A stretch of DNA of 41,378 bases, taken from positions 1 through 41,378 of the IMG/VR virus record IMGVR_UViG_3300009597_000028; one strand, 5' to 3'. The stretch is from a virus. The notes under the pieces were generated by a model that saw nothing but the letters and a program-made list of their open reading frames with translations, was not told where the DNA came from and did not search any database. The number at the start of each line of letters is the position of its first letter. Within the stretch, counting starts at the first letter, position 1. A program made the position numbers and the translations under genes. Positions 401 to 24,614 of this stretch are shown one piece after another.

Positions 401-3400
401 AGGCCTGGGTTCCATCCAATATAGATATGTCCGTTAAGTCGTGTGAAGGTATATAGAGTATGCTTACTTCCTACCGTTGAACCATGACCAACAGGCAAGT
501 GAGTAGTAAAAGTAGGTGTCCCTGAGAAGCTACATTGTGCAGACGTTGTTCCTGTCAATACGATTGAGTAAACTCCACCATCTACCGTATTGTTCAGTTG
601 AACAGAGCCACAGTTTGAAGAAGATACTTGGTTGACCCCTTCATTAAAATCAAAGATTAAGTTAGCTTTTACTGCTGGCTGTGCTACTCCACCAGCATCA
701 GAACTACAATTAAAATTAGTTCCATCAGATTTTAGAATCTGCCCATTACTACAAGAGGTCGGTGGAAAAGTATATGAAGAAGTACCGAGGCCTATTCCCT
801 TAGCTGTCCCACCAGCATATAGCATGACTCTGTTTGCTAAACCGTCAACTCCATTAGCAACAAAAAGTGAATTTGAATCTATGCCACCAGATTTAATGGC
901 CTTACCTGTAGTGCTCGAATATACTGCAACTTCACCGTCATAAGTTCCACCTGCTGGACCTGCTACATCACCAGCACCACCAGAATCAGCCTGACAAGTA
1001 AAGGTTGCTCCAACCGATTTTAGAATCTGACCTGTAGTACACATAGTAGATGGAACAGCATCTAAGACTGTTTTATTTGCATGAGAGTGGGTAGTAGCTT
1101 CAAGTGCAGTTATATCAACATTTAAAAGCCTACCTTGATTAGCAGAAAGAGCATTTACGGCAGAGGTTGAGGTCAATAAGTCCTCAACTACTGTGATTGA
1201 GTTGGTGTCTACAGGTAAGGCCACCCAAGATAATTGTCCACTCGAATTTGCTAGAAGTATCTGGCTATTTCCTGGGGCAGAAGTAGGTAAATTTAAAGTA
1301 TAGTTACTGTTATTGGAACCAGAAGAAGCAAGTGTTACTGTTCCCACTCCTCCACTATTAAATTTAACTCCACTCATTCCACCAGCAGCAGGACCTAAAG
1401 TTAAATATCCTGTTGCATAAGTAAATCCAGAATATGTTTTTAATGTTTTACCACCTGTACCACTAAACATGGCAACAGAGCCATCCTCAGAACCAGCAGG
1501 TCCTGATACATCACCTGTTGCTGTAGAGGTAGCAGGAGTAGCAAATACTAAATTACTTCCACTAACTTGCAGAACTTGGCCATTAGAACCAACAGTCTGC
1601 GGAATAGTATATCCAGTTTCAGCCAATGCCTTAGATAGACCATTGTAAGCAAGAACAACCCTATTAGCAGCACTAAAATTTGCAGCTTTAGTGGCAACAA
1701 TCGCTGAAGGAATACCAGAATCTTTAATAAGTTTACCAGTACCTGTATTAAAAGATGCTAGATTACTGTCATTTGCAGTACCAGGCCCAACCACATCACC
1801 AGTAGAGGCAGCAGGGAGAGTTACATATTGTCCTGTTCCTGATAAGTATTCTGTGGTAGTCCCATTTGTCTTAATGTTATCTAAGGTTCCTTTATTAGCG
1901 TGAGTATGGGTTTGGCCCTGTAAAGCAGTTATATTAGTAGTGTGGGTAGCTATTGCGGAAGTATTGGAAGCTATTTTACCATCCAATACTCTACCTTGAT
2001 TAGCTGATAAGGCATTTGTTGCCGAGTTTGAGGTTAATAAGTCCTCTACTACTGTTACTGTGTTGGTATCTACTGGAGTCCTATAATCACCAAAAGCAGA
2101 CAAGAACATAGTAGTAGAACCACCTGTTGTTATTGCATCTAATTGAGATTTGTTAGTATGAGAGTGAGTAGCTGCGGTTAGAGGAGTTATCTTTCCATCT
2201 AATATCCTACCTTGATTGGCAGATAGGGCAGCAGTAGTAGAAGTTGAGCTAAGAGCATCAATTACTACGGTTGCTGCCCCACCAAAATCATCCTGACAAG
2301 TAAAATTTGTTCCATCAGATTTTAGAATCTGTCCGTTTGGACAAGAACTATCTGGAAATGTATAGTCAGAGGTTTGAAGTCCTAATCCTGTCGCTCCTCC
2401 ACCAGCAAATAGCATAACTTTGTTTGCTGTAGGAACAACTCCATTAGCAACAAAAAGGGAATCTGAGTCTATACCTGAACTTTTAATAACCTTACCTGTA
2501 GAGTCTGCAAATACTGAAATCTCACCATCAAAAGTTCCTCCAGCAGGACCCAGTACATCACCTGCTCCACCACCTCCGGCCACACCACCAGCAGAGGTTC
2601 CAATCTTATCGCAACCAAAAGGCTCACAAACAGTTACTAAGTTATTTGTTAAATCTAAATCGTCTTTCTGAAATACAAACCAAGCTGAGAATTTTGTTAG
2701 AGTTAAATCTACTGGCTTGATAAAATTTGTAGATATAGCTGCTGCTTTAGCGGCTGCCTCATCAGCATACTCAGCTTGAGCATACATAATATAATCATCT
2801 ACGCCCGGTGCAGAATAAATCCTTACAAATCCCCATTTATTATTACTCAATACTGCTAAGTCATTAGTGCCATCATCCCAAACAGAAGTATTAAAAACTG
2901 TCTTTCTGGTAGTAGGAACAACAGGACCCCCTTGATAATACTCGAAAAAAGGGACTGGACTTATTGCCAGCACACTTTTGGTATTGGGATTATATTGGTC
3001 AGAAGTATTAGCACCCCAATAATAAACATCATGTGCGGTTCTTGCCATTGTTAGCGGTGTTGCTGGTACTGCCGAATAGCTAAGTCCTTTTGTCATACCT
3101 CCGAAGAAGAAGGAAAGACCTCTAAGCTGTCCTACTGGGTTTGTGGGGTAGGTTTCTCTATCATAAGCAACACCCAAGTTCATATCCACTATACCAACAG
3201 ATATTTTTGTATCTTGCTCGGCCTGAGTCGTAGCACCTGTTCCAGATACATATTCTAAAACTCCAGTTGAATTTATAAATAAGGTAAAAATATTTGGAGG
3301 ACTATTAGGTAGAGTAACAGTTTGAGTTCCCCACTCGACAATAGTTATTTGCGGAAATGCTGTAGGTGCTGGGCCATATAAAGCTATATAACCTGTACCT

Positions 3401-5823
3401 GCTTGAACAGTAGCTACTCTGGTAGGTGCATTTAGTGTTGCCTGACCACCAGCTTGAAGCCCTGTAGTTATAATAGGAGGAGATATTGCTAATATTTTAC
3501 CTGCTCTAAAATCAGCAGGAACATTAGTAGAAGTATGGTCTTGGGTTACTTTAAAGAGCCAGTTGTTATTATCACCAGAGTTCTTAATCTCCCCTACTTT
3601 ATATGCCTGTCCAACGGCCCAAGTAGTTAGCGGAACCTTCTCATTAAGGACCCTACCTTGGTTAGCTGATAAAGCTGATGTGGTTGAGGTAGAATTTAGA
3701 GCGTCTATAACTGTTGTTATTGTGTTTGTATCAATAGGAACCTTATAATTACCATCATTAGCGAGAAAGGTAGTTCCGCCACCAGCATCAGTAACTTTAT
3801 CTAAAGCACCTTTGTTAGCATGAGTATGAGAGGCCGCAGTTAATGGAGTTATCTTTCCATCTAGTATCCGTCCTTGATTAGCAGAGAGAGCAGCAGTTGT
3901 GGAAGTGGAGTTAAGAGCATCTACTACTATGGTTATATCATTAGTATCAACAGGAGTTGTATAAGTTCCAAGTGCAGACAAATATTGAGTAGCAGGTCCA
4001 GTAGTCTTTAAAGTATCAAGTAATGCTTTGTTGGCATGAGTATGAGAGTTTGTTTGTATAGTTGTGATTGAAGCAGTAGTTATACCGCTATCTTTTATGA
4101 GTTTACCTGTGGTTCCTGAGTAAGAGGCCAGATTATCCGCAACTGCAACAGCAGGACCCACCACATCACCTGTTCCACCGCCAACATCTGTTGCCCATGA
4201 AACTACACCAGCACCATTAGTTTTTAATATTTGATTATTTAACCCATCTACCGCAGGGATAGTATAAGTAGTATTTTTTATTAACTTACCAGAAACTGAA
4301 TTAAATAAAGCGACTTGATTAACTACTGAGGAAGCAGGTCCAACAACATCACCACCACCAGTACCCATAGCTATCCAAGATAGTTGTCCAGTAGCATCTG
4401 ACCTTAGAACTTGATTAGCGACTGGAGGAACAGCAGGAAAGGTTAAGGTATAATCTGCGGTAAGGCTCTGTGAAGCGGCCAGAATAAATCTAAAATTATT
4501 AGGGGACCAACCTAAGGCACTGTAATTAAAAAATGATTGCTGAGGAGTAGTGTTGACAACAAAAGACCCAGGAGCAGGTAGATAGATATTCCATAGGTCT
4601 AAAGCTATATCAGAATCATCCTTTAATACTTTCCCTGATAAACCATCCCAAATAGCAAAATGATTATTTCTTGAGGCTTGTGGACCTATCATAGGAACAT
4701 CAACAGCTTTTAAATATTTTCCAGTTGCGTCCGTAAAAGCAGCGTATTTGTTAGCGATAGTTGGAGTTACCATTTCCTCCGCATAAATTTCTAGTTCATA
4801 CAAATCTCCGTTACCATAACCTCCGTCAGTTTGGTCGCCCGGATACTCAAGTTTAAAGTAACTATAAGCAGGAGGAACAGATGGCAGGTTATACACATAC
4901 CAATCATTTTGAGTAGCACCTACTACATTGTTTATAACAGTCCAAGTAGTGCCATTAGTTGAGCCACTAAAAGTCCATTTTGTTCCACCATCACCAGCCG
5001 TCCAAACCCTGTACTGCTTTATAGCTTTTGCTACTGGTATTTGAACCACAACAAAGACAGGTGGTACTCCAGCATAATAGTCTGTAGTAGTAACCCCATC
5101 AAATGACCTATAGTAAGAGCCACCTGCTGGACTACCAGTTATGGTATATCCTGTAGGAGTGGTATTAGAGGTCATGTTAGGGTTAATTTTAACGAGTTGT
5201 AGGGATGCCGTTGGAATAGGTCCCCAAACATCACCCTTAGTAACGTTTAGAATCCTACCCTGATTAGCTGATAAAGCTGATATGGTAGAGGTAGAGTTAA
5301 GGGCATCTATTACTTGGACTTGTGGTATAGTGGCTATATCACCTTGAATTTCGATAATATCACCTTGAATGTCGGTAATATCACTCTCTATAACCAATAT
5401 ATCGCTATTAATGGTTATTAACTCATCTTCAATATTTCCAATAGCAGTAGTATTATCAGTTATATCGCTAACAGCATCAGATATTTTACCATCTAATATT
5501 CTACCTTGGTTAGCTGATAGGGCGAATACTGCTGATGGTGAAGTTAAGTTATCTATTACTGTGGTTCCACCTGCACTACTTACGTTTCCATTAGTATCTT
5601 TGATAAATAGCTTAATCTTTGAATCAACAGGGTCTACCTTTGGATATATAAAGATATGGCTGGACATTGGGACTTTAGCAGGGTCAGCTACAACCTTCCC
5701 ATCTAAATAACTAAATTGGGTACAACTTTCATTAATATCTCCAGTATCACAAGGTGCTGATACTGCTAGTTTTGAGGTTAAAATTAGCAGTAAAACTAAA
5801 AGTTTTTGGATATTTGTAACCAT
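397..5823 (-). CDS. Large repeat-built tail fibre / adhesin-like protein with signal peptide
   Basis: A protein of 1,808 aa. Residues 1-23 look like a Sec signal peptide (basic start, LLVLLLIL core, AVSA then PC). Next come an Ile-rich coiled coil (about 115-165) and a discoidin-like (F5/8 type C) domain at about 212-348. The rest is tandem modules: seven copies around ALSANQGR, six starting GDVxGP with GKxIK after them, and several HTHANK/HSHANK segments leading to a xYLSxxGxY turn. This is stalk-and-knob fibre architecture, common in environmental phages. It overlaps the upstream 199-aa gene by 28 bp and the downstream fibre by 4 bp, so it sits in the late tail operon. The likely role is host binding. 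The signal peptide is odd for a virion protein. Confidence 0.85.
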   Translation of the reverse strand: MVTNIQKLLVLLLILTSKLAVSAPCDTGDINESCTQFSYLDGKVVADPAKVPMSSHIFIYPKVDPVDSKIKLFIKDTNGNVSSAGGTTVIDNLTSPSAVFALSANQGRILDGKISDAVSDITDNTTAIGNIEDELITINSDILVIESDITDIQGDIIEIQGDIATIPQVQVIDALNSTSTISALSANQGRILNVTKGDVWGPIPTASLQLVKINPNMTSNTTPTGYTITGSPAGGSYYRSFDGVTTTDYYAGVPPVFVVVQIPVAKAIKQYRVWTAGDGGTKWTFSGSTNGTTWTVINNVVGATQNDWYVYNLPSVPPAYSYFKLEYPGDQTDGGYGNGDLYELEIYAEEMVTPTIANKYAAFTDATGKYLKAVDVPMIGPQASRNNHFAIWDGLSGKVLKDDSDIALDLWNIYLPAPGSFVVNTTPQQSFFNYSALGWSPNNFRFILAASQSLTADYTLTFPAVPPVANQVLRSDATGQLSWIAMGTGGGDVVGPASSVVNQVALFNSVSGKLIKNTTYTIPAVDGLNNQILKTNGAGVVSWATDVGGGTGDVVGPAVAVADNLASYSGTTGKLIKDSGITTASITTIQTNSHTHANKALLDTLKTTGPATQYLSALGTYTTPVDTNDITIVVDALNSTSTTAALSANQGRILDGKITPLTAASHTHANKGALDKVTDAGGGTTFLANDGNYKVPIDTNTITTVIDALNSTSTTSALSANQGRVLNEKVPLTTWAVGQAYKVGEIKNSGDNNNWLFKVTQDHTSTNVPADFRAGKILAISPPIITTGLQAGGQATLNAPTRVATVQAGTGYIALYGPAPTAFPQITIVEWGTQTVTLPNSPPNIFTLFINSTGVLEYVSGTGATTQAEQDTKISVGIVDMNLGVAYDRETYPTNPVGQLRGLSFFFGGMTKGLSYSAVPATPLTMARTAHDVYYWGANTSDQYNPNTKSVLAISPVPFFEYYQGGPVVPTTRKTVFNTSVWDDGTNDLAVLSNNKWGFVRIYSAPGVDDYIMYAQAEYADEAAAKAAAISTNFIKPVDLTLTKFSAWFVFQKDDLDLTNNLVTVCEPFGCDKIGTSAGGVAGGGGAGDVLGPAGGTFDGEISVFADSTGKVIKSSGIDSDSLFVANGVVPTANKVMLFAGGGATGLGLQTSDYTFPDSSCPNGQILKSDGTNFTCQDDFGGAATVVIDALSSTSTTAALSANQGRILDGKITPLTAATHSHTNKSQLDAITTGGSTTMFLSAFGDYRTPVDTNTVTVVEDLLTSNSATNALSANQGRVLDGKIASNTSAIATHTTNITALQGQTHTHANKGTLDNIKTNGTTTEYLSGTGQYVTLPAASTGDVVGPGTANDSNLASFNTGTGKLIKDSGIPSAIVATKAANFSAANRVVLAYNGLSKALAETGYTIPQTVGSNGQVLQVSGSNLVFATPATSTATGDVSGPAGSEDGSVAMFSGTGGKTLKTYSGFTYATGYLTLGPAAGGMSGVKFNSGGVGTVTLASSGSNNSNYTLNLPTSAPGNSQILLANSSGQLSWVALPVDTNSITVVEDLLTSTSAVNALSANQGRLLNVDITALEATTHSHANKTVLDAVPSTMCTTGQILKSVGATFTCQADSGGAGDVAGPAGGTYDGEVAVYSSTTGKAIKSGGIDSNSLFVANGVDGLANRVMLYAGGTAKGIGLGTSSYTFPPTSCSNGQILKSDGTNFNCSSDAGGVAQPAVKANLIFDFNEGVNQVSSSNCGSVQLNNTVDGGVYSIVLTGTTSAQCSFSGTPTFTTHLPVGHGSTVGSKHTLYTFTRLNGHIYIGWNPGL

Positions 5824-6395
5824 ATATTTAAACCGTCCATTAGTACCAGTTGGAGTTGTATAGACTGACCTTTATAGAAAGTAACAGAGCCATTTAACCA
5901 GACACCATAGTTTATGGTACGGCTATTAACCATCTTTGGAGGAACCTCATCACTTATTCCATATAGAGTTACTGTGGAACCAACTTCCACTTTATCCCCA
6001 AATGGAGTGGACGAGATGGGCGATTCAAAAGATTGACCGTAAATAGGTATTATTGCCATAGGGCTAGTTAATATTATAATTTCTCCTGAACGTATTTGCT
6101 GGTCATCTTGAAGTGTGTAATATGCTCTGCCACCTTCACCATCAGGAGTCCCATCAGGATACTGACTAGAGCCATCAGGGTCATCAACAGTAAAATTTTT
6201 AGAACCAATAAAAGGCGTAACTTTTTCAACATTGTCAGACCCTATGTCAATCTTATTAAAATTAAATGGTGAAGTAGTTCCTATGTTTTTATTTCCTTTA
6301 TCAACAAGAGTAGGTATTCTGGCCTCAGCATAGTCAGCAGGAACAAGACGGACTCTGCCATCTATAATAACTCTCCTCATTCTAGGTGTAGCCAT
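5796..6395 (-). CDS. Putative tail structural protein, unknown
   Basis: A protein of 199 aa with no family I can name. It starts with a basic segment (MATPRMRRVIIDGRVRLVP) and ends in beta-rich sequence with a hydrophobic C-terminus. It lies between the head-tail adaptor (1 bp away) and the 1,808-aa fibre, overlapping the fibre start by 28 bp, so it should be co-translated with both. Position alone suggests a connector or a protein bridging adaptor and fibre. There is no signal peptide or catalytic motif. Confidence 0.75.
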   Translation of the reverse strand: MATPRMRRVIIDGRVRLVPADYAEARIPTLVDKGNKNIGTTSPFNFNKIDIGSDNVEKVTPFIGSKNFTVDDPDGSSQYPDGTPDGEGGRAYYTLQDDQQIRSGEIIILTSPMAIIPIYGQSFESPISSTPFGDKVEVGSTVTLYGISDEVPPKMVNSRTINYGVWLNGSVTFYKGQSIQLQLVLMDGLNIWLQISKNF

Positions 6396-6396
6396 T

Positions 6397-7095
6397 TTAA
6401 TTCCTCATTTGTAAAGGACCAGCATTAAAATCAATTTGATGTGTGTAATCTGTCAATGCCAAGTAAGCCTCAGCGTATTTTTGTTGCCATAATTGTACTC
6501 TAGGGTCATTAACCAGATAGGCTTCAGCCTCCATTAGACTTCCATATAAGTATAAGTCAGGTGCTATTCTAAGGACGGAATTGGTTTCATCATCATTATT
6601 CATTCCTGAGAAGTCTGCCCAGTAGCTTAGTTTAACCTTAGGATAGGTTGTAACTCCTAACTCTTTTTTAATTTCCATATTGAAAGGAAGTAGAAGTAAA
6701 TCACCTTCTCTTGAGAACTTAGAACACCCTCTATAAACATCCTTAGGAAGGCCAGGATGCTCTCTTACAAAGAGGTTATAATCCAAAAAGTTAAGTATAG
6801 TATTATTTATAGTTAGTGCTTTAAGAGTTAACAAATCTTCAGGCACTAGAATCTCATTAGTAAATACTGATGTTCCATCTGTCTTATCATTAATGAAAGT
6901 AGGGAAAACTGAAACCTCATTTGCAGGACACCTCATACCTCTGAAAATCTTTCTCTCAGCTAATGCTATAAAAGACTTAATTAGACCCATATCACCTATC
7001 ATAGGTCTTATAGGGTTATTTACATCAGCATCACCTAAATCTTCCCTATTTAGCCATAGCTTTACGGCCTGTTGTAGTTCTCCATAGGTTTTCAT
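6397..7095 (-). CDS. Head-tail adaptor protein (SU10 adaptor-like)
   Basis: A protein of 232 aa. The N-terminus has the usual adaptor pattern, YGELQQAVKLWLNREDL, then a helix with LAERKIFRGMRCP. A beta segment follows, and the C-terminus is helical (LYLYGSLMEAEAYL, then QKYAEAYLAL). These are hallmarks of podoviral head-to-tail adaptors that dock under the portal, as in phage SU10. An SU10-type capsid gene in the same operon supports this. The start overlaps the stop of the upstream 345-aa gene by 4 bp. Confidence 0.7.
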   Translation of the reverse strand: MKTYGELQQAVKLWLNREDLGDADVNNPIRPMIGDMGLIKSFIALAERKIFRGMRCPANEVSVFPTFINDKTDGTSVFTNEILVPEDLLTLKALTINNTILNFLDYNLFVREHPGLPKDVYRGCSKFSREGDLLLLPFNMEIKKELGVTTYPKVKLSYWADFSGMNNDDETNSVLRIAPDLYLYGSLMEAEAYLVNDPRVQLWQQKYAEAYLALTDYTHQIDFNAGPLQMRN

Positions 7096-17700: not shown

Positions 17701-18655
17701 TAACAGATATTAGACTATAGACGGATTCTCCTTCTATTAGATTAGGGGAGGGCGGAAAAAATAGCAAGGGGAGTCAGAGCTTCGCCCGAATGAATCGGTA
17801 GTAGGAGAGGAGGGGGGTCAACTACTATTATAGGGTTTGCCCGGCTTCAGATGGAACTTGAGTCCCTTCCGTTGGGCGGGAGCCTTTTTGAAGGTGGGTA
17901 GGCGTTTTCCTAGCCCAGAATCCATCGTAATCCCTAGTAATATCAATGACTTAGCTAACTCTCCCTGCCCTGTCCGTCCCCTATGAGAATGATGATGGTG
18001 ATTGGTGGAGTGAATGGATGTGCTGGGTGATTGAGGTGTGTGTGTGATTGGAGAGTGCCGATATGATACCTCCAATTCATTCTCCAAATCGCTGTCGGAT
18101 GATGTGAGTGAGTGAGTGGATAGAAGGGAAGGCCGATTAACCTACTAAACCATTTCAACCTAGCTGAGGTAACAACTTACCTGCCTAAACGTGGAATACG
18201 TCCAATTAACTACGTCTAATAGGATTTATTAGGTGCTATTCCCTGTACCTTTTCTATCTATCTATTCACCAAGTGGTTTACCTAGTGTTCTCCTATGTGA
18301 AATCAATACCCATCTAATAGATGAATGGAATTAATCTGGCGGATTTACCCAGTCTTTTCTCATACTCACCTACCTATTTAATCATGCGTATCCTATCGGA
18401 ATCAGGGCATAATCTAATTATATTTATTAATAGTATCCTAAGAGATATACATACTATGCAAATTAGTATCTAATGGACTCTGTTCTCGTTCTCACATTCA
18501 GCACTTCGATACCCCAGACAAAGGCGAAGCAAACAGGACCAAGAATCCTCCGGTAGGACCCAGACGTATTTGCCTTGGAACTAGGATGGTTTGTTAGCTA
18601 GGAATTGTTTGAGAGTAACGAGTAATAAAATACCTCCTCCAAATGTTAGTAAATC
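17701..18655. other. Gene-free divergent control region
   Basis: About 950 bp between the minus-strand late block and the plus-strand early block. From left to right it holds the candidate minus promoter and a G/T-rich stretch on the plus strand (about 17980-18130) with GTGATTGG/GTGATTGA-like repeats and GAGTGAGTGAGTGG. Further on are a perfect palindrome CATCTAATAGATG near 18312 and an AT-rich patch (about 18410-18480) with ATTAGTATC/ATAGTATCC near-repeats. Short open frames here have odd composition and no ribosome sites. It may contain the origin or the main promoters, but no consensus early promoter stands out. Confidence 0.6.
17827..17856 (-). promoter_or_regulatory. Candidate sigma70-type promoter for the minus-strand block
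   Basis: On the minus strand a perfect TATAAT (17832-17827) has TTCCAT 18 bases upstream as a poor -35. It lies about 140 bp before the first minus-strand gene. The -10 is good and the -35 is weak, so this may need an activator or be chance. Confidence 0.3.
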
Positions 18656-18731
18656 GGTAGGGACCAGACACCAGTTTGGTTCTTATCTGTGTACTAGCAA
18701 TTTCGCTGGTTACAATTTTGGAGGTATTCAA
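18656..18731 (+). promoter_or_regulatory. Structured RNA leader, copy 1
   Basis: Hairpin 1 pairs GGTAGGGACCA (18656-18666) with TGGTTCTTATC (18677-18687), 11 pairs counting G-U. Hairpin 2 pairs CTAGC with GCTGG around AATTTC (18694-18709). TTTTGGAGG and ATTCAA then lead into the ATG. The same layout recurs before five further early genes with changed but still pairing stems. Confidence 0.75.
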
Positions 18732-19106
18732 ATGGATTTATCAAATGTTGTTATGGTTGAGAGAAATGGTGTACGAGTTCCAGCTATCGAGTTCAAAGAA
18801 GGAGTCAGAGTCTACAGAGTGGTGGCGAGTGCTACCTCAGAGCATGAGCAGACACTAGAAAGGGAACTATCAGACAATGAAGGGAAGCCAATGACTCTGC
18901 CATTGATAGAGTTGTTCTGCTACTCGACTGGTTCAGTAGGGTTCGAGAATGTAGACGTTAAGGTGCAGTTAGATGGCCAGCTAGTAGTTGCTGGCACTCT
19001 ACTGGGAACGCCTCTGACTATGGTTATGAGCATGAGCAGAGAACTGAAAGAGAAAAGAAAGTTCATCAAGAAACTAAACGCTGATTATTCAAAGTTCATT
19101 GATTAA
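18732..19106 (+). CDS. Hypothetical early protein, 124 aa
   Basis: The start is ATG 18732, six bases after GGAGGT; the frame is open upstream to 18591, but that part is the structured leader. The product begins MDLSNVVMVERNGVRVPAIE, is beta-rich in the middle (VDVKVQLDGQLVVAGTLLG) and has a basic helical C-terminus (RELKEKRKFIKKL). It is the first gene of the plus-strand early block. No family recognised. Confidence 0.75.
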   Translation: MDLSNVVMVERNGVRVPAIEFKEGVRVYRVVASATSEHEQTLERELSDNEGKPMTLPLIELFCYSTGSVGFENVDVKVQLDGQLVVAGTLLGTPLTMVMSMSRELKEKRKFIKKLNADYSKFID

Positions 19107-19115
19107 TGGCCGTAA

Positions 19116-19188
19116 GGTAGGGACCGACACCAGTCGGCTCCTATCCTAAGACCAGTAATTAAACAGGTCTAAAGTTTGGAGGTATTCA
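19116..19188 (+). promoter_or_regulatory. Structured RNA leader, copy 2
   Basis: Hairpin 1 pairs GGTAGGGACCGAC (19116-19128) with GTCGGCTCCTATC (19133-19145), loop ACCA, with one A-C mismatch. Hairpin 2 pairs AGACC with GGTCT (19149-19170) around an AATTAA-centred loop. TTTGGAGGTATTCA precedes ATG. The upper stem CCGAC/GTCGG differs from copies 3 and 4 on both arms, which is compensatory. Confidence 0.78.
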
Positions 19189-19605
19189 ATGTCAAAGAGT
19201 TTACGCAATTTAAAGATGAATGATGAGGTCTATGCCCTAAGAAGAAAGGTAGTTGACCTAATCTATGAAGCCAAGAAAATGGTTCCCTTGCCTCGAATAG
19301 AGATAAAGGTAACTGAAGATGACCCAAAGATTCTGGGTCAAGCTGTCCTGAGTTCCAATAAGATTTGGATAAGCCAGAAGGTAGTAAAGAACTACGACCT
19401 TAGGTCAATAGTATGGCACGAATTGGTTCATGCGGTCCTAGGCGTGGGACATGATGAGAAATGCCCACTAATGGCCAGCACTTACAAAGGTAAGATGGAG
19501 CCTAAAGATGCTGACAGGTTATTAAAGTCATACTTTAGGGCCTACGGTGTGACTGATGCTGATGATGACGAATTAAGATTTGAATCAGAGAACTCCAGAG
19601 ATTAA
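19189..19605 (+). CDS. Small HExxH zinc-metalloprotease-like protein
   Basis: A protein of 138 aa. Residues 76-95 read WHELVHAVLGVGHDEKCPLM: HELVH (77-81) gives the two His and the Glu of a zinc protease, His88 is a possible third ligand and Met95 a Met-turn-like residue. This resembles metzincins, but six residues separate HExxH from the third His instead of five, so the fit is imperfect; a SprT-like or minimal gluzincin fold is possible. The N-terminal half is a helix plus a strand with IWISQ. It is cytoplasmic (no signal). As an early gene it may cleave or bind a host protein, by inference. Confidence 0.72.
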   Translation: MSKSLRNLKMNDEVYALRRKVVDLIYEAKKMVPLPRIEIKVTEDDPKILGQAVLSSNKIWISQKVVKNYDLRSIVWHELVHAVLGVGHDEKCPLMASTYKGKMEPKDADRLLKSYFRAYGVTDADDDELRFESENSRD

Positions 19606-19614
19606 TGGTTAATC

Positions 19615-19678
19615 GGTAGGGACCAGCTAACTAGCTGGCTCCTATCTATGAACTTTTAACTAACCAAGGAGATTTAAA
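19615..19678 (+). promoter_or_regulatory. Structured RNA leader, copy 3 (hairpin 1 only)
   Basis: GGTAGGGACCAGCT (19615-19628) pairs with AGCTGGCTCCTATC (19633-19646), loop AACT, with the same A-C mismatch as copy 2. I see no convincing second hairpin. The ribosome site is GGAGATTTAAAATG, a different type from copies 1, 2, 4 and 5 but the same as copy 6. Confidence 0.72.
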
Positions 19679-19942
19679 ATGAAGTATTGGGACCATGGTA
19701 TTTACAAGAACACAAACGCCACTCTGCTATTTGATTCAAACACAGGCAAGGCAACCAGTTATCATGTCTGGAACCTGCTATTAAAGGACAAGAAAGGACG
19801 TTATCACCTAAACGAATACAAGTTTAGCAAGACCACCAGCAAGCATATCACCCAATTAAAGAACGTGATTTCTGGCCTAGGGATAAGCTGGATTCCTAGG
19901 GTTTCAGGTCTAAATATGACTGAGGAAATGATTAACAGTTAA
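19679..19942 (+). CDS. Hypothetical early protein, 87 aa
   Basis: Begins MKYWDHGIYKNTNATLLFD. It is basic, with two beta-strand-like stretches followed by a helix (KHITQLKNVISGLG). Shine-Dalgarno GGAGA lies seven bases before ATG. No metal-binding or catalytic motif and no family recognised. It sits in the string of leader-separated early genes. Confidence 0.72.
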   Translation: MKYWDHGIYKNTNATLLFDSNTGKATSYHVWNLLLKDKKGRYHLNEYKFSKTTSKHITQLKNVISGLGISWIPRVSGLNMTEEMINS

Positions 19943-19944
19943 GC

Positions 19945-20016
19945 GGTAGGGGTCAGCTAGTGCTGGCTCCTATCTCTGAACTACTAATTAAAGTGGTTTC
20001 AATTTGGAGGTATTAA
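19945..20016 (+). promoter_or_regulatory. Structured RNA leader, copy 4
   Basis: GGTAGGGGTCAGC (19945-19957) pairs over all 13 positions with GCTGGCTCCTATC (19962-19974), loop TAGT. The A-C mismatch of copies 2 and 3 is here a G-C pair. Hairpin 2 pairs AACTACT (19979-19985) with AGTGGTT (19992-19998). TTTGGAGGTATTAA leads into ATG. Confidence 0.8.
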
Positions 20017-20427
20017 ATGAAATTTAACGAACTGGATTCTACGGTCAGGGAAAAGATTACTTTGGATTATCTTACGGGTTGGCTTGAAACTCATCCTAAT
20101 GAACCATTATCAGCAAAGGAATTGCTTGATACTTTGGATAATGAAGTGGATGAGTACACACCTAACGGAAACTTGATGGCCTTTGATAACTGGTGTGTAG
20201 TATGCGGAAAAGGTATTTCAGAACTAGAAAAGACCTGCTCGGTTGAATGTTGGAATGATAACTATGATAGGCAGGAATCAGAGGCATATATCAGAGAAGT
20301 AACTGGGCATAGTAAATGCTTGACCTGTGGAGAAGAATTTTCTCATTTCGCTGGTCAGGACGTGGCCTATTGTTCAGAAGAATGTAATCCATCACTAAGT
20401 GGCTCTGCTGATGAAGATTGCGAGTAG
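20017..20427 (+). CDS. Early protein with two zinc-knuckle-like modules
   Basis: A protein of 136 aa. After a helical N-terminus come two Cys clusters. The first is CVVCGKG...CSVEC (about 60-78) and the second CLTCGEE...CSEEC (about 102-123). Each is a CxxC-x(n)-CxxxC treble-clef-type knuckle. The tail is acidic (GSADEDCE). The next gene carries one such module, so the two are probably related. Likely a small zinc protein that binds nucleic acid or protein; the target is unknown. Confidence 0.75.
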   Translation: MKFNELDSTVREKITLDYLTGWLETHPNEPLSAKELLDTLDNEVDEYTPNGNLMAFDNWCVVCGKGISELEKTCSVECWNDNYDRQESEAYIREVTGHSKCLTCGEEFSHFAGQDVAYCSEECNPSLSGSADEDCE

Positions 20428-20429
20428 TA

Positions 20430-20500
20430 GGGTATTGGTCAGCATTTGCTGGCCGATATTCTAAAACTGGTAATTTAACTGGTTTATTTGGAGGTATCTA
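20430..20500 (+). promoter_or_regulatory. Structured RNA leader, copy 5
   Basis: GGGTATTGGTCAGC (20430-20443) pairs over all 14 positions with GCTGGCCGATATTC (20448-20461), loop ATTT. The lower stem differs from copies 1-4 on both strands but still pairs, which is strong compensatory evidence. Hairpin 2 pairs AAACTGGT (20464-20471) with ACTGGTTT (20478-20485), eight pairs with G-U. TTTGGAGGTATCTA precedes ATG. Confidence 0.82.
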
Positions 20501-20683
20501 ATGTCAGAAGAAAGAGCATTGATTACTAGCTTATGCATACACTGTGGAAAGGATTTTCAAAGTCAATTAGGCGAAAAGGATTCATTTAGAAGTTTTGGTT
20601 TCTGTTCTGATAAATGCTGTGACGAAGGCTTTGAAGAACATTGGTCCTATACTGAAACAAGTTTTGATGATGAGGAGGCTTAG
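20501..20683 (+). CDS. Small single zinc-knuckle protein, 60 aa
   Basis: Residues 12-40 hold CIHCGKD...CSDKCC, one CxxC-x(n)-CxxxC module like those in the gene before. The tail is acidic (SFDDEEA). The similarity in layout to the 136-aa neighbour suggests duplication of a zinc module. Function unknown; an early takeover protein is plausible. Confidence 0.7.
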   Translation: MSEERALITSLCIHCGKDFQSQLGEKDSFRSFGFCSDKCCDEGFEEHWSYTETSFDDEEA

Positions 20684-20690
20684 ACTGTTG

Positions 20691-20758
20691 AAGGTTTGGG
20701 GTCAAGCATTGACCTCATTCCTTGAACTGGCAATAAAGCCATAACGAGGAGATTTAAA
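20691..20758 (+). promoter_or_regulatory. Structured RNA leader, copy 6
   Basis: AAGGTTTGGGGTCAA (20691-20705) pairs with TTGACCTCATTCCTT (20709-20723), loop GCA, with two T-T mismatches. A weak second hairpin is TGGC-AATAAA-GCCA (20728-20741). The ribosome site is GGAGATTTAAAATG as in copy 3. Confidence 0.7.
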
Positions 20759-20887
20759 ATGTTAATTGTAATAGCTACCATTGGCCTCTGGTTATTCCTT
20801 TGGTCCTTGGTGTTTCTTGGTGAGTTCTTGGATATACTTGATAGCTTGATTGATGACTTGATTTACACGATTAGGGGGGACAAATGA
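20759..20887 (+). CDS. Small membrane protein, 42 aa
   Basis: Starts MLIVIATIGLWLFLWSLVFL, a single membrane segment at the very N-terminus, then an amphipathic Asp/Leu/Ile helix ending TIRGDK. Shine-Dalgarno GGAGA lies before ATG, and the stop overlaps the next ATG by ATGA. It is probably an inner-membrane peptide, perhaps a superinfection or host-modulating factor; by sequence alone it could also be holin-like, though its early position argues against that. Confidence 0.65.
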   Translation: MLIVIATIGLWLFLWSLVFLGEFLDILDSLIDDLIYTIRGDK

Positions 20888-21164: not shown

Positions 21165-21198
21165 AGGGGCCAGCTAAAAGTAAATAAAACTGGCCCCT
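21165..21198. terminator. Strong hairpin between convergent early gene and rusA
   Basis: AGGGGCCAG (21165-21173) pairs perfectly with CTGGCCCCT (21190-21198). On the minus strand it is followed by TTTCATTT, so it can end rusA transcription; on the plus strand there is no T tract. The stem resembles hairpin 1 of the leader family, so it may be a terminal member of it. Confidence 0.6.
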
Positions 21199-21260: not shown

Positions 21261-21698
21261 CTAATTCATATATTCAATATTGTAAAACTTACAACTTACT
21301 CCCTCAACTTCACCCACCGATTTAATAGCTTTAATTTCCCAGAAATTAGAGTCATCTACACATATCGCTTCTGATATGGCATCCTCAATCACTTTAATCC
21401 TATTACTAATATCATATCTTTTAATTTCCCCTACCTTGGTGTAAACCTTGGATTCTGGTAAGCTGAATGTCAGCACCAGGCCAACTTTATTCCATGTCTT
21501 GACCATCTTCTTAACTCTATTCACCGTTTGGTAATTTATTACCGCCCACTCCTCAAACTTTTTTGCAAAATCCTTGTATAGTTTATTTCTACACCTACCG
21601 CCATTTGGAAGTGGCATATAACAGTTGTTTACGGATGGTGGAACAGGCATACCGAGAAATAAGTCTGTTTGGTCTATGATAGTGGCAAGGGTATCCAT
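21261..21698 (-). CDS. rusA: RusA-like Holliday junction resolvase
   Basis: A protein of 145 aa, close to the usual RusA length. It begins near PPSVNNCY (typical P-x-N start). The key segment at about 94-121 reads KRYDISNRIKVIEDAI and then VDDSNFWEI; Asp 96, 106 and 115/116 fit the metal-binding acids and Arg/Lys nearby the rest of the site. RusA dimers cut four-way junctions during recombination or before packaging. It is the only minus-strand gene inside the early block, with its own divergent promoter candidate. Confidence 0.85.
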   Translation of the reverse strand: MDTLATIIDQTDLFLGMPVPPSVNNCYMPLPNGGRCRNKLYKDFAKKFEEWAVINYQTVNRVKKMVKTWNKVGLVLTFSLPESKVYTKVGEIKRYDISNRIKVIEDAISEAICVDDSNFWEIKAIKSVGEVEGVSCKFYNIEYMN

Positions 21699-21789: not shown

Positions 21790-22160
21790 TAATTGGGATT
21801 TGGACCGTTAAAAGCCATAATGGAATACATGGACAATGGACCTCCAGTCATCCGTAAAGTGCCAGCGAAGTAAAACTCCTGATGGAGCAGTAGATTGGTA
21901 CAGATGAGAGTCAATGACTACTAGGTAAACGTGCGGAGATAGTACCTAGCGGAAGGCCAATACCCCAAGGATAAATAGCCACCGAGAAACTGAGAGAAGT
22001 ATCGGTAACGCCATCAAGCTAAGGTTGGGATAACCTCCCTCCTAGCTGTAGCTTTCCTAAAAATACCCATATAAATCTATTCCAGCGAGCCTTACGAAGT
22101 GCGGTTGATGTTCAATCATATCTCACCGTCCCCAGAAGAAATCCCTTGGCTCGCTACCAT
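21790..22160. ncRNA. Gene-free, helix-rich stretch: candidate structured RNA
   Basis: No real gene lies in 21699-22199. The stretch holds many perfect pairings in nested order. They are CTCC/GGAG (21876-21887); ATTGG/CCAAT (21894-21898 with 21957-21961) enclosing AGTC-AAT-GACT and CTAGGTA/TACCTAG (21921-21949); ACCGA/TCGGT (21981-22006); AGCTA/TAGCT enclosing AGGTT/AACCT (22017-22047); and AGCGAGCC/GGCTCGCT (22084-22155) enclosing CGGT/ACCG. TGTCCATG/CATGGACA (21770-21835) overlaps the promoter. It fits no class I know: no tRNA, tmRNA or group I intron core. An origin with inverted repeats is the alternative. The strand is not settled, though the promoter favours plus. Confidence 0.5.
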
Positions 22161-22199
22161 TTCCCCTGTATCCTCTTAGGCTAATAAAGGTAAACTACT

Positions 22200-22758: not shown

Positions 22759-22818
22759 GGGAACCAGTCTATTTTAATTACTGTAACGGGTATGGAGGAT
22801 TCAAGTAGACTGGCCCCT
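22759..22818 (+). promoter_or_regulatory. Variant hairpin related to the early leader family
   Basis: CCAGTCTA (22764-22771) pairs with TAGACTGG (22806-22813), extended by GGG/CCT past two mismatches. The loop is 34 bases and contains TTAATTAC and GGAGGATTCAAG, which resembles the leader ribosome site GGAGGTATTCAA but has no ATG after it. This may be a leader that lost its gene. Confidence 0.4.
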
Positions 22819-22898
22819 AAAGGTTCCTCGTCCATCCTTGGACAATCGGTCCGTACTTTCATTATATAAAATAAATTAATAAATAAATCTAAAATATG

Positions 22899-22955: not shown

Positions 22956-23681
22956 ATGTCCACTTATGAATTTAAAACTCAAGACGTGAAGGGTAAGCCC
23001 TATGTAATGGTAAACGAACGAATCAAGTTTTTTAGAGAATGTCCAAAGTACGCTGGTTGGTCTATTGAGGTAGGTATTGAGAAGCTGGAACTTGGTACTG
23101 ATAATGACCAAGTAATGATGATTGCTCTGGTTAAGGACCATGCTGGTAGAGTAATGACAACTGGTAGAGCGTGGGAAGTAAGGGATTCCAGCTTTATTAA
23201 TAAGACTAGCTTTATTGAGAACTGTGAAACCTCAGCCGTAGGCAGAGCACTAGGCTTTCTAGGTATTGGCGTAGACACCTCAATAGCTACCTTTGAGGAA
23301 GTTGCTGTAGCTGTGGCCGCTCAAAACTCAATATCACCTGCTCCAGTTAAGGTTGAAGCTCTACCAGTACCAGCTAAACCAGTAATCGAGAAAACTGAGG
23401 TAGTTAAGATTCCACAAAAGACTGTTATTTCAAATAATAAACCAGAAGATGATGATGCATTTGACGGATTTATCCAATCAATGAAGGAACAGGCCCTATC
23501 CTACGAGGGTACAGTCATTCCTTTCGGTAAGTACAAAGGTAAACCTGTTGGCTCGGTTCCAAGGAAGGAATTAGCTGACTGGTATAAATGGTTGACCAGC
23601 ACAGATTTCAAGAAGGAACCATTTGCCTATGTATGTGAAGCTATCGAGTTCGTTATAGCTGAGAAAAAGGCAGGAAAATGA
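22956..23681 (+). CDS. Single-strand annealing/ssDNA-binding-type recombination protein
   Basis: I start at ATG 22956 (AAGGAGATTCTA upstream); the frame is open to 22896 across the promoter. The product is 241 aa. Residues 15-117 carry the pattern PYVMVNERIKFFRE, TTGRAWEV, then IENCETSAVGRALGFLGIG, seen in phage proteins annotated as annealing or ssDNA-binding recombinases. A Pro/Val-rich linker (about 124-165) leads to a C-terminal FGKYKGKPVGSVPRKELADW module of the DUF3820 kind. It sits in front of a YqaJ exonuclease gene, the usual two-component recombination pair. Confidence 0.72.
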   Translation: MSTYEFKTQDVKGKPYVMVNERIKFFRECPKYAGWSIEVGIEKLELGTDNDQVMMIALVKDHAGRVMTTGRAWEVRDSSFINKTSFIENCETSAVGRALGFLGIGVDTSIATFEEVAVAVAAQNSISPAPVKVEALPVPAKPVIEKTEVVKIPQKTVISNNKPEDDDAFDGFIQSMKEQALSYEGTVIPFGKYKGKPVGSVPRKELADWYKWLTSTDFKKEPFAYVCEAIEFVIAEKKAGK

Positions 23682-23725
23682 GCACTATACTACTGAGTAT
23701 TATAATTGAACTTAACAACTGTATG

Positions 23726-23750
23726 GGGGGACTGGTTACTCTGGTCCCTA
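23726..23750 (+). promoter_or_regulatory. Hairpin between annealing-protein and exonuclease genes
   Basis: GGGACTGG (23728-23735) pairs with CTGGTCCC (23741-23748), loop TTACT, with two wobble pairs. It has the GGGAC/GTCCC core of the early leader hairpins and ends CTACC. No T tract follows, so simple termination is unlikely. I see no clear second hairpin. Confidence 0.5.
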
Positions 23751-23801
23751 CCACTACTCAACAAAAAATGGAAATCTGTTTAAAAATAATTGGAGATAAA
23801 A

Positions 23802-24614
23802 ATGACTAGATATTTTGAAATCAATCACGTTCAAGGTTCACCAGAATGGATTAAATGGCGTAAGGAAGGAATAGGGGCAAGTGATGTTGCCGCCATTCTC
23901 GGAGTATCACCTTATATTACAGCTTATAAGCTATATAAGATTAAGAAGAACCTATGCCCAGACTATGAGATAAGCGAGTTTGCTAAGATAGCTGGGGCAA
24001 CTGCTGAGGATGATTCCAGACAGGCTTATAATGAGATTAGCGGTAAGGTATTCATGCCTAAGTGCTTCGAGTTTGTAGGCGAGCCTCGTTTTAAATGTAG
24101 CCTAGATGGATGGGATAATGGAGAGATATTGGAGGCCAAATTCGTAGGCTCTGAATACCTAAAAGAGATTCTGGATGGTAAGCCAGTTAGACAGGACCAC
24201 TATGCTCAACTTCAATGGCAAATGTTTATAACTGGGTCCCCTCATGTGAATTACTTCATCATAGATAAGCAGAACAATAAGGTTTATACCAAAGTCTTAA
24301 AGGATGATAGTTATATTGAGGTAATAGTTCAGAAAGTTAAGGATTTTCTCACTAGGATGGACACAAATTGTCCACCTGATGTGTCTGAGGATGATTATTT
24401 AGAGGCCCCAGAACTAATAGCTATAAGACTTACTACCCTAGCTAGACTGAAGGAAGAACTAGATAGGACCCAGAAGTTATTTGACTCCTTAAAGTACAGC
24501 CTACTGCCTGACCTTACCCATAACAAGTATGAAGTATCTCAGGAAGGAATCAAGTTCTATAAGAATGGAAAGAACTGGACTCTTAAAGTTAAGAGTAAGG
24601 AGGAATCATGTTAG
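23802..24614 (+). CDS. YqaJ-type viral exonuclease
   Basis: A product of 270 aa from ATG 23802 (TTGGAGATAAAA upstream); a TTG 12 bp earlier is not needed. It has lambda-exonuclease/YqaJ hallmarks in order: GSPEWIKWRKEGIGASDVA (12-30), SLDGW with Asp102, LEAKF with Glu111 and Lys113, and HYAQLQWQMFITG (133-145). These make a two-metal 5'-3' exonuclease that resects dsDNA for the annealing protein encoded before it. The C-terminal part is helical. It overlaps the XRE gene by 7 bp. Confidence 0.87.
   Translation: MTRYFEINHVQGSPEWIKWRKEGIGASDVAAILGVSPYITAYKLYKIKKNLCPDYEISEFAKIAGATAEDDSRQAYNEISGKVFMPKCFEFVGEPRFKCSLDGWDNGEILEAKFVGSEYLKEILDGKPVRQDHYAQLQWQMFITGSPHVNYFIIDKQNNKVYTKVLKDDSYIEVIVQKVKDFLTRMDTNCPPDVSEDDYLEAPELIAIRLTTLARLKEELDRTQKLFDSLKYSLLPDLTHNKYEVSQEGIKFYKNGKNWTLKVKSKEESC

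Follow-up and report, generated by a model that had tools for sequence, protein, structure and literature searches.

A selection-maintained structured RNA element ahead of almost every gene of a small-gene operon in a clade of uncultured phages

A run of small genes in an uncultured phage raises a simple question, namely why almost every gene in it is preceded by a hairpin of the same general design, and what such a hairpin might do. The window, i.e. the whole stretch of DNA analysed, comes from IMG/VR, where it is filed as a virus record; it measures 41,378 nt and has a direct repeat of 123 nt at its ends. Podovirus-like phages, PfAn1 and 7-11 among them, have terminases that share 42-44% identity with the one it encodes. 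The run of genes presumably represents an early operon, judging only from gene type and position. The evidence given below supports well the view that the hairpins are a structured RNA element, maintained by selection, that stands ahead of almost every gene of this one operon.

The original prediction placed a hairpin (hairpin 1) in six intergenic leaders, and all six were recovered where they had been reported, on the plus strand. The first element (e1, 18644-18699, upper stem 18656-18687, model score 51.9 bits) is the operon leader; it has no upstream gene and precedes gene 1 (18732-19106, 124 aa). The second (e2, 19099-19162, upper stem 19116-19145, 54.9 bits) carries the stop codon of gene 1 within its 5' strand and is followed by gene 2 (19189-19605, 138 aa), whose product resembles SprT/matrixin-like zinc metalloproteases with a score below the curated cut-off. 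Then come e3 (19599-19661, upper stem 19615-19646, 60.4 bits) and gene 3 (19679-19942, 87 aa), e4 (19929-19990, upper stem 19945-19974, 66.3 bits) and gene 4 (20017-20427, 136 aa, a zinc-ribbon/treble-clef protein), e5 (20415-20476, upper stem 20431-20460, 53.6 bits) and the cysteine-rich gene 5 (20501-20683, 60 aa), and finally e6 (20677-20740, upper stem at about 20691-20723, 48.3 bits) and the hydrophobic gene 6 (20759-20887, 42 aa), all on the plus strand. Each of the leaders e2-e6 lies between the stop codon of the upstream gene and the Shine-Dalgarno sequence of the next one, the upper stem beginning about 2-13 nt past the stop codon and ending 27-45 nt before the next start codon. The region 18601-20800 contains 6 hairpins of at least 12 bp, a count that takes in an intragenic one at 19526-19554 and leaves e6 just below the cut, as compared to a mean of 0.49 and a maximum of 4 in 200 shuffles, i.e. 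an approximately tenfold excess. The leaders of the window also fold more stably than shuffled sequence (z-scores from -2.3 to -6.6).

What is conserved is a single long, irregular hairpin and not a pair of independent ones. From its base it consists of a distal helix, a mismatch, a lower helix, a purine-purine mismatch, 2 bp, a further mismatch, an upper stem of 10-16 bp and a loop of 3-4 nt, and the lower helices reach back across the upstream stop codon. The leaders had been described as two-hairpin structures; both hairpins do exist, but the long helix that encloses hairpin 1 and overlaps hairpin 2 had been missed. RNAalifold, applied to twelve copies, found the same irregular hairpin independently, with hairpin 1 gaining two further helices set off by mismatches.

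In an alignment of 19 elements 89.2% of the cells are paired and two-sided changes occur at 18 of the 22 pairs. The controls were shuffles, a slid register and swapped flanks: none of 500 shuffles reached the observed values on any measure, a count that is not a true probability as many copies are related, and the signal collapses when the alignment is slid by one column. The lower helices taken alone pass the shuffle test on paired cells, two-sided cells and the covariation score, and fail it on two further measures, the counts of pairs and of types. Pairing is weaker with flanks exchanged between copies than with the cognate ones (8/20,000; 3/720 for the window alone), which supports a hairpin that continues into the region of the upstream stop codon. 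At columns 8/47 there is a purine-purine mismatch in all 19 copies (A·G in 11, G·A in 4 and G·G in 4). The helices of 15 distinct copies contain 50 G-U cells versus 6 A-C cells; a DNA palindrome would be indifferent to the strand, so this bias points to selection on the RNA of the coding strand. The model scores far lower on the reverse strand (30 versus 66 bits). Selection on RNA structure, as originally proposed, is thus strongly supported, and the compensatory changes quoted at the time are correct, including the A-C of copies 2 and 3 that becomes A-U in copy 1 and G-C in copy 4, as well as the lower stem of copy 5, rewritten as TATT/GATA. The loop of hairpin 1 shows no sequence conservation, and the 3' strand of the internal loop often reads UAUGA or UNUGA.

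The window and four related uncultured phages together contain 19 complete copies, one copy with a long loop and one that is cut. In L006, which is 77-82% identical to the window at the nucleotide level in the larger aligned blocks, six elements are found, one ahead of each gene in the same gene run. L019, whose terminase is 68% identical to that of the window, has four clear elements and one with a long loop (4724-4835, minus strand), in which a long extra hairpin occupies the upper stem where a small loop would be expected. L151 has three elements, and L007 has one that is cut by the contig end. A search of related phages with a covariance model had been suggested as a check, and it did reveal further elements: the model that detected the L019 and L151 copies was built solely from the window and L006, L151 having been retrieved via its terminase and L019 via a DNA pattern present in one of its own copies. 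A match in L011 was rejected as it was judged by eye to fall within coding sequence, and the DNA-pattern matches in bacterial genome contigs look like chance, scattered as they are over unrelated bacteria.

The element is absent from eight reference phages (PfAn1, tf, 7-11, phiM5, Venkman and three Manatee Spring phages) and from 78 loci that carry a related recombinase and span 0.9 Mb (best E 6.6, a rough value like all those from the covariance models built here), so the family is confined to one clade as far as it was searched. When 243 loci were scanned in a generic way for serial hairpin leaders, this clade alone was recovered. The clade has no close match in some 50,000 phage records, the best terminase identity being about 44%, and one genome scan with the terminase as a query returned no relative. 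There is no match to the elements in Rfam 15, either at the gathering score or at E <= 5; the elements constitute a well-supported structured-RNA family without an Rfam entry.

The genes between the elements vary among the phages while the elements remain. The L006 homologue of gene 1 is 79% identical and stands behind its own element, the homologue of gene 5 stands behind element LE, and gene 6 is missing in L006. Genes 3 and 4 of the window are replaced in L006 by different genes of 107 and 89 aa, of which the former recurs in L019 and the latter in L151; the first gene of L019 recurs in L151 as well. Leaders LD and NC share 99% identity and a common upstream gene, but the genes that come after them differ. 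The common elements are natural crossover points, and gene exchange at them is more likely a consequence than evidence of their function.

The second hairpin was said to be clear in four copies; it is in fact clear in five, i.e. in e1 (18688-18714), e2 (19149-19170, loop AAUUAA), e4 (19978-19999, loop AAUUAA), e5 (20464-20485, loop AAUUUA) and e6 (20728-20741, loop AAUAAA), all on the plus strand, and is missing from e3. For the most part hairpin 2 represents another way of folding the 3' arm of the long hairpin: the conserved AAUUAA that appears as its loop is part of the 3' strand of the distal helix, and in several copies the two folds compete, since bases of hairpin 2 are also used by the lower helices. 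Hairpin 2 covaries too (5/50,000), hence both folds covary. The two are within about 1 kcal/mol of each other in e2, e4, e6, LC, NA and NB, and within 2-3 kcal/mol in PA and PB, while the long hairpin is clearly favoured in e3, LB, LE, LF, ND and PC, the copies without hairpin 2. In most leaders neither fold reaches the ribosome site; e1 is the exception. In e1 the Shine-Dalgarno sequence of gene 1, GGAGGTATT (18720-18728), is perfectly complementary to an upstream AATACCTCC (18629-18637), which could hide it; by eye this arrangement was not seen in the other phages.

What could be the function of such an element? We favour the view, with about an even chance of being right, that the elements are intercistronic processing signals of the kind found in the early operon of phage T7, and that they are cut by RNase III. 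A single transcript would cover the small-gene operon, and it would form a long irregular hairpin ahead of the first gene as well as at every junction between two genes. The host double-strand ribonuclease RNase III would then cleave this hairpin, the conserved mismatch in its 3' strand (NNU^GAAC) being the most likely cut position. The upper stem would stay on the upstream message as a 3' cap. On the downstream message the 3' arm, now released, would in most copies refold as hairpin 2 and form a 5' stem-loop immediately ahead of the Shine-Dalgarno sequence. Such refolding would explain why two competing folds are kept up.

It is instructive to compare the elements to the T7 sites. In the early operon of T7, RNase III sites precede genes 0.3, 0.5, 1, 1.1 and 1.3. 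Folded in the same way around the cut positions, these sites show an upper stem, an irregular internal loop and a lower stem; at these presumed positions three of them read UAU^GA. The similarities are manifold: in both systems an extended, irregular hairpin whose upper stem sits on an internal loop is found in related copies between the genes of one operon, with one copy preceding the first gene, shortly before the ribosome site and at a similar distance from the next start (27-45 nt here, 27-35 nt in four of the five T7 sites), and the 3' strand of the loop is UAUGA-like. The strand equivalent to the T7 cut reads NNUG in 15 of the 19 elements (UAUG in four), where the G is the mismatched purine, and UAA or CAA replaces it at the presumed cut in the other four. 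There are also differences. Firstly, the upper stem is mostly longer in our elements. Secondly, they show 1x1 mismatches as opposed to the large asymmetric loop of T7; R1.1, for instance, which separates genes 1.0 and 1.1 and undergoes cleavage in vivo, is 60 nt long and has an internal loop that is asymmetric (PMC6121014). Thirdly, the 3' arm of the elements holds a covarying alternative hairpin. The covariance model R2 found no match in T7 500-6700 at E <= 10, which indicates that the likeness is one of architecture, a resemblance and not descent. Among the three roles initially suggested, RNase III-type processing is the best fit, given the number of elements per operon, their place before genes, the irregular hairpin and the UAUGA-like strand; the structural covariation fits any factor that binds double strands or a particular shape. 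If the elements are cleaved, this clade would have arrived, apparently independently, at the T7 way of cutting an operon into single-gene messages, and the elements would be a fixed RNA joint between copies of which the phages trade accessory genes. The 19 natural variants are a ready set for testing what RNase III reads in hairpins.

The two folds may also be read as a shared regulatory switch without any cleavage. Here the long hairpin on the one hand, and hairpin 1 plus hairpin 2 on the other, would be two states that tune the translation or the stability of the next gene, the choice being made by a protein of the phage or the host, or else by a ribosome terminating at the stop codon upstream. 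Covariation in both folds, their near-equal energies in several leaders, the upstream stop codon covered by the 5' strand and the complementarity of GGAGGTATT to AATACCTCC in e1 would all agree with this, and the translational switch of the original prediction is possible to that extent. However, six copies (e3, LB, LE, LF, ND and PC) have no hairpin 2, the ribosome site is not clearly hidden outside e1, and with hairpin 1 loops that vary in sequence no loop-reading protein is evident; we consider this reading unlikely, if deserving of attention. A somewhat smaller chance is left for stability or insulation without processing, in which a stem placed just behind the stop codon, as the upper stem is, would protect upstream 3' ends or block ribosome read-through and Rho, but the conserved mismatch positions, the paired lower helices and e1, which has no upstream gene to protect, would then be left unexplained. 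It is rather doubtful that cutting itself depends on translation, i.e. that a ribosome arriving at the upstream stop opens the long hairpin, whose 3' arm then switches to hairpin 2, and that this decides whether the message is cut; if this bistable arrangement were true, the expression of gene n would set the processing or expression of gene n+1 along the operon.

Antitermination by cis-acting RNAs, also among the roles first suggested, is improbable. The put RNAs of phage HK022 occur at two sites per genome, one in each early operon and proximal to the promoter. Our elements are like put in that a structured RNA without a U tract is located in the operon leader; on the other hand, they occur six times in one operon, one per gene, and a different conserved leader, present once per phage, lies upstream of e1. 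Finally, DNA-level elements such as operators, recombination joints or hairpin promoters could account for genes being swapped between elements, as around the near-identical LD and NC, but the G-U bias and the low reverse-strand scores make them very improbable indeed.

In cluster K mycobacteriophages the SAS/ESAS elements include ESAS, imperfect 17 bp inverted repeats with a conserved half-site consensus that are tied to a 13 bp start sequence (PMC3203893). Like these, our elements are inverted repeats just before the translation starts of many small non-structural genes, with several copies per genome. Unlike ESAS, their stem sequence drifts and differs between copies while pairing is kept, G-U pairs occur on one strand only, and the 13 bp start sequence GGGATAGGAGCCC is not visible in the leaders.

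Three further candidates were rejected. The elements are not simple intrinsic terminators, as had been said from the start: they lack a stem followed by a T run, and a scan put no terminator-like site on any leader hairpin. A promoter for each gene was dismissed as there was no sigma-70-like match within the leaders on the strand of the genes, and so were promoters of a phage RNA polymerase, including N4-type hairpin promoters, since no polymerase family was found among the large ORFs scanned and the stem sequences vary.

A few neighbouring features deserve mention. The second conserved, RNA-like leader is located just upstream of e1 in the window (18480-18600) and is also found in L006 (4968-5120), L019 (6486-6645) and L151 (826-975), on the minus strand in all three, with the motif ..CACTCGATACCC..GGGCGAGC..AAAC.. 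RNAalifold predicts 32 pairs, 15 of them with two-sided changes, in an alignment of four sequences only; this leader is a candidate operon-leader element, perhaps for antitermination. Past the last small gene there is a hairpin (21165-21197, GGGGCCAG..CTGGCCCC) with a conserved 16-nt loop, both arms of which are changed in L006 (GGGGCCTG..CAGGCCCC). It gives a weak model match on the reverse strand (21.8 bits) and is possibly an end-of-operon relative of the elements. A RusA-like resolvase is encoded at 21261-21698, on the strand opposite to the recombination module at 22956-24614, which comprises a protein that matches uncharacterised PHROG families and has relatives in more than 200 viral contigs, and then a YqaJ/RecE-like exonuclease. 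Between RusA and the next operon, about 390 nt (21790-22180) contain no long ORF; this stretch is strongly conserved in L006, is not alignable in L019, and its fold is not unusually stable (z -0.85). Upstream of the recombinase gene, the region 22780-22870 has no clear gene and is conserved with L006 (..ACTGTAACGGGTATGGAGGATTCA.., ..CCTCGTCCATCCTTGGACAATCGGTCCGTACTTTCATTATATAAA..).
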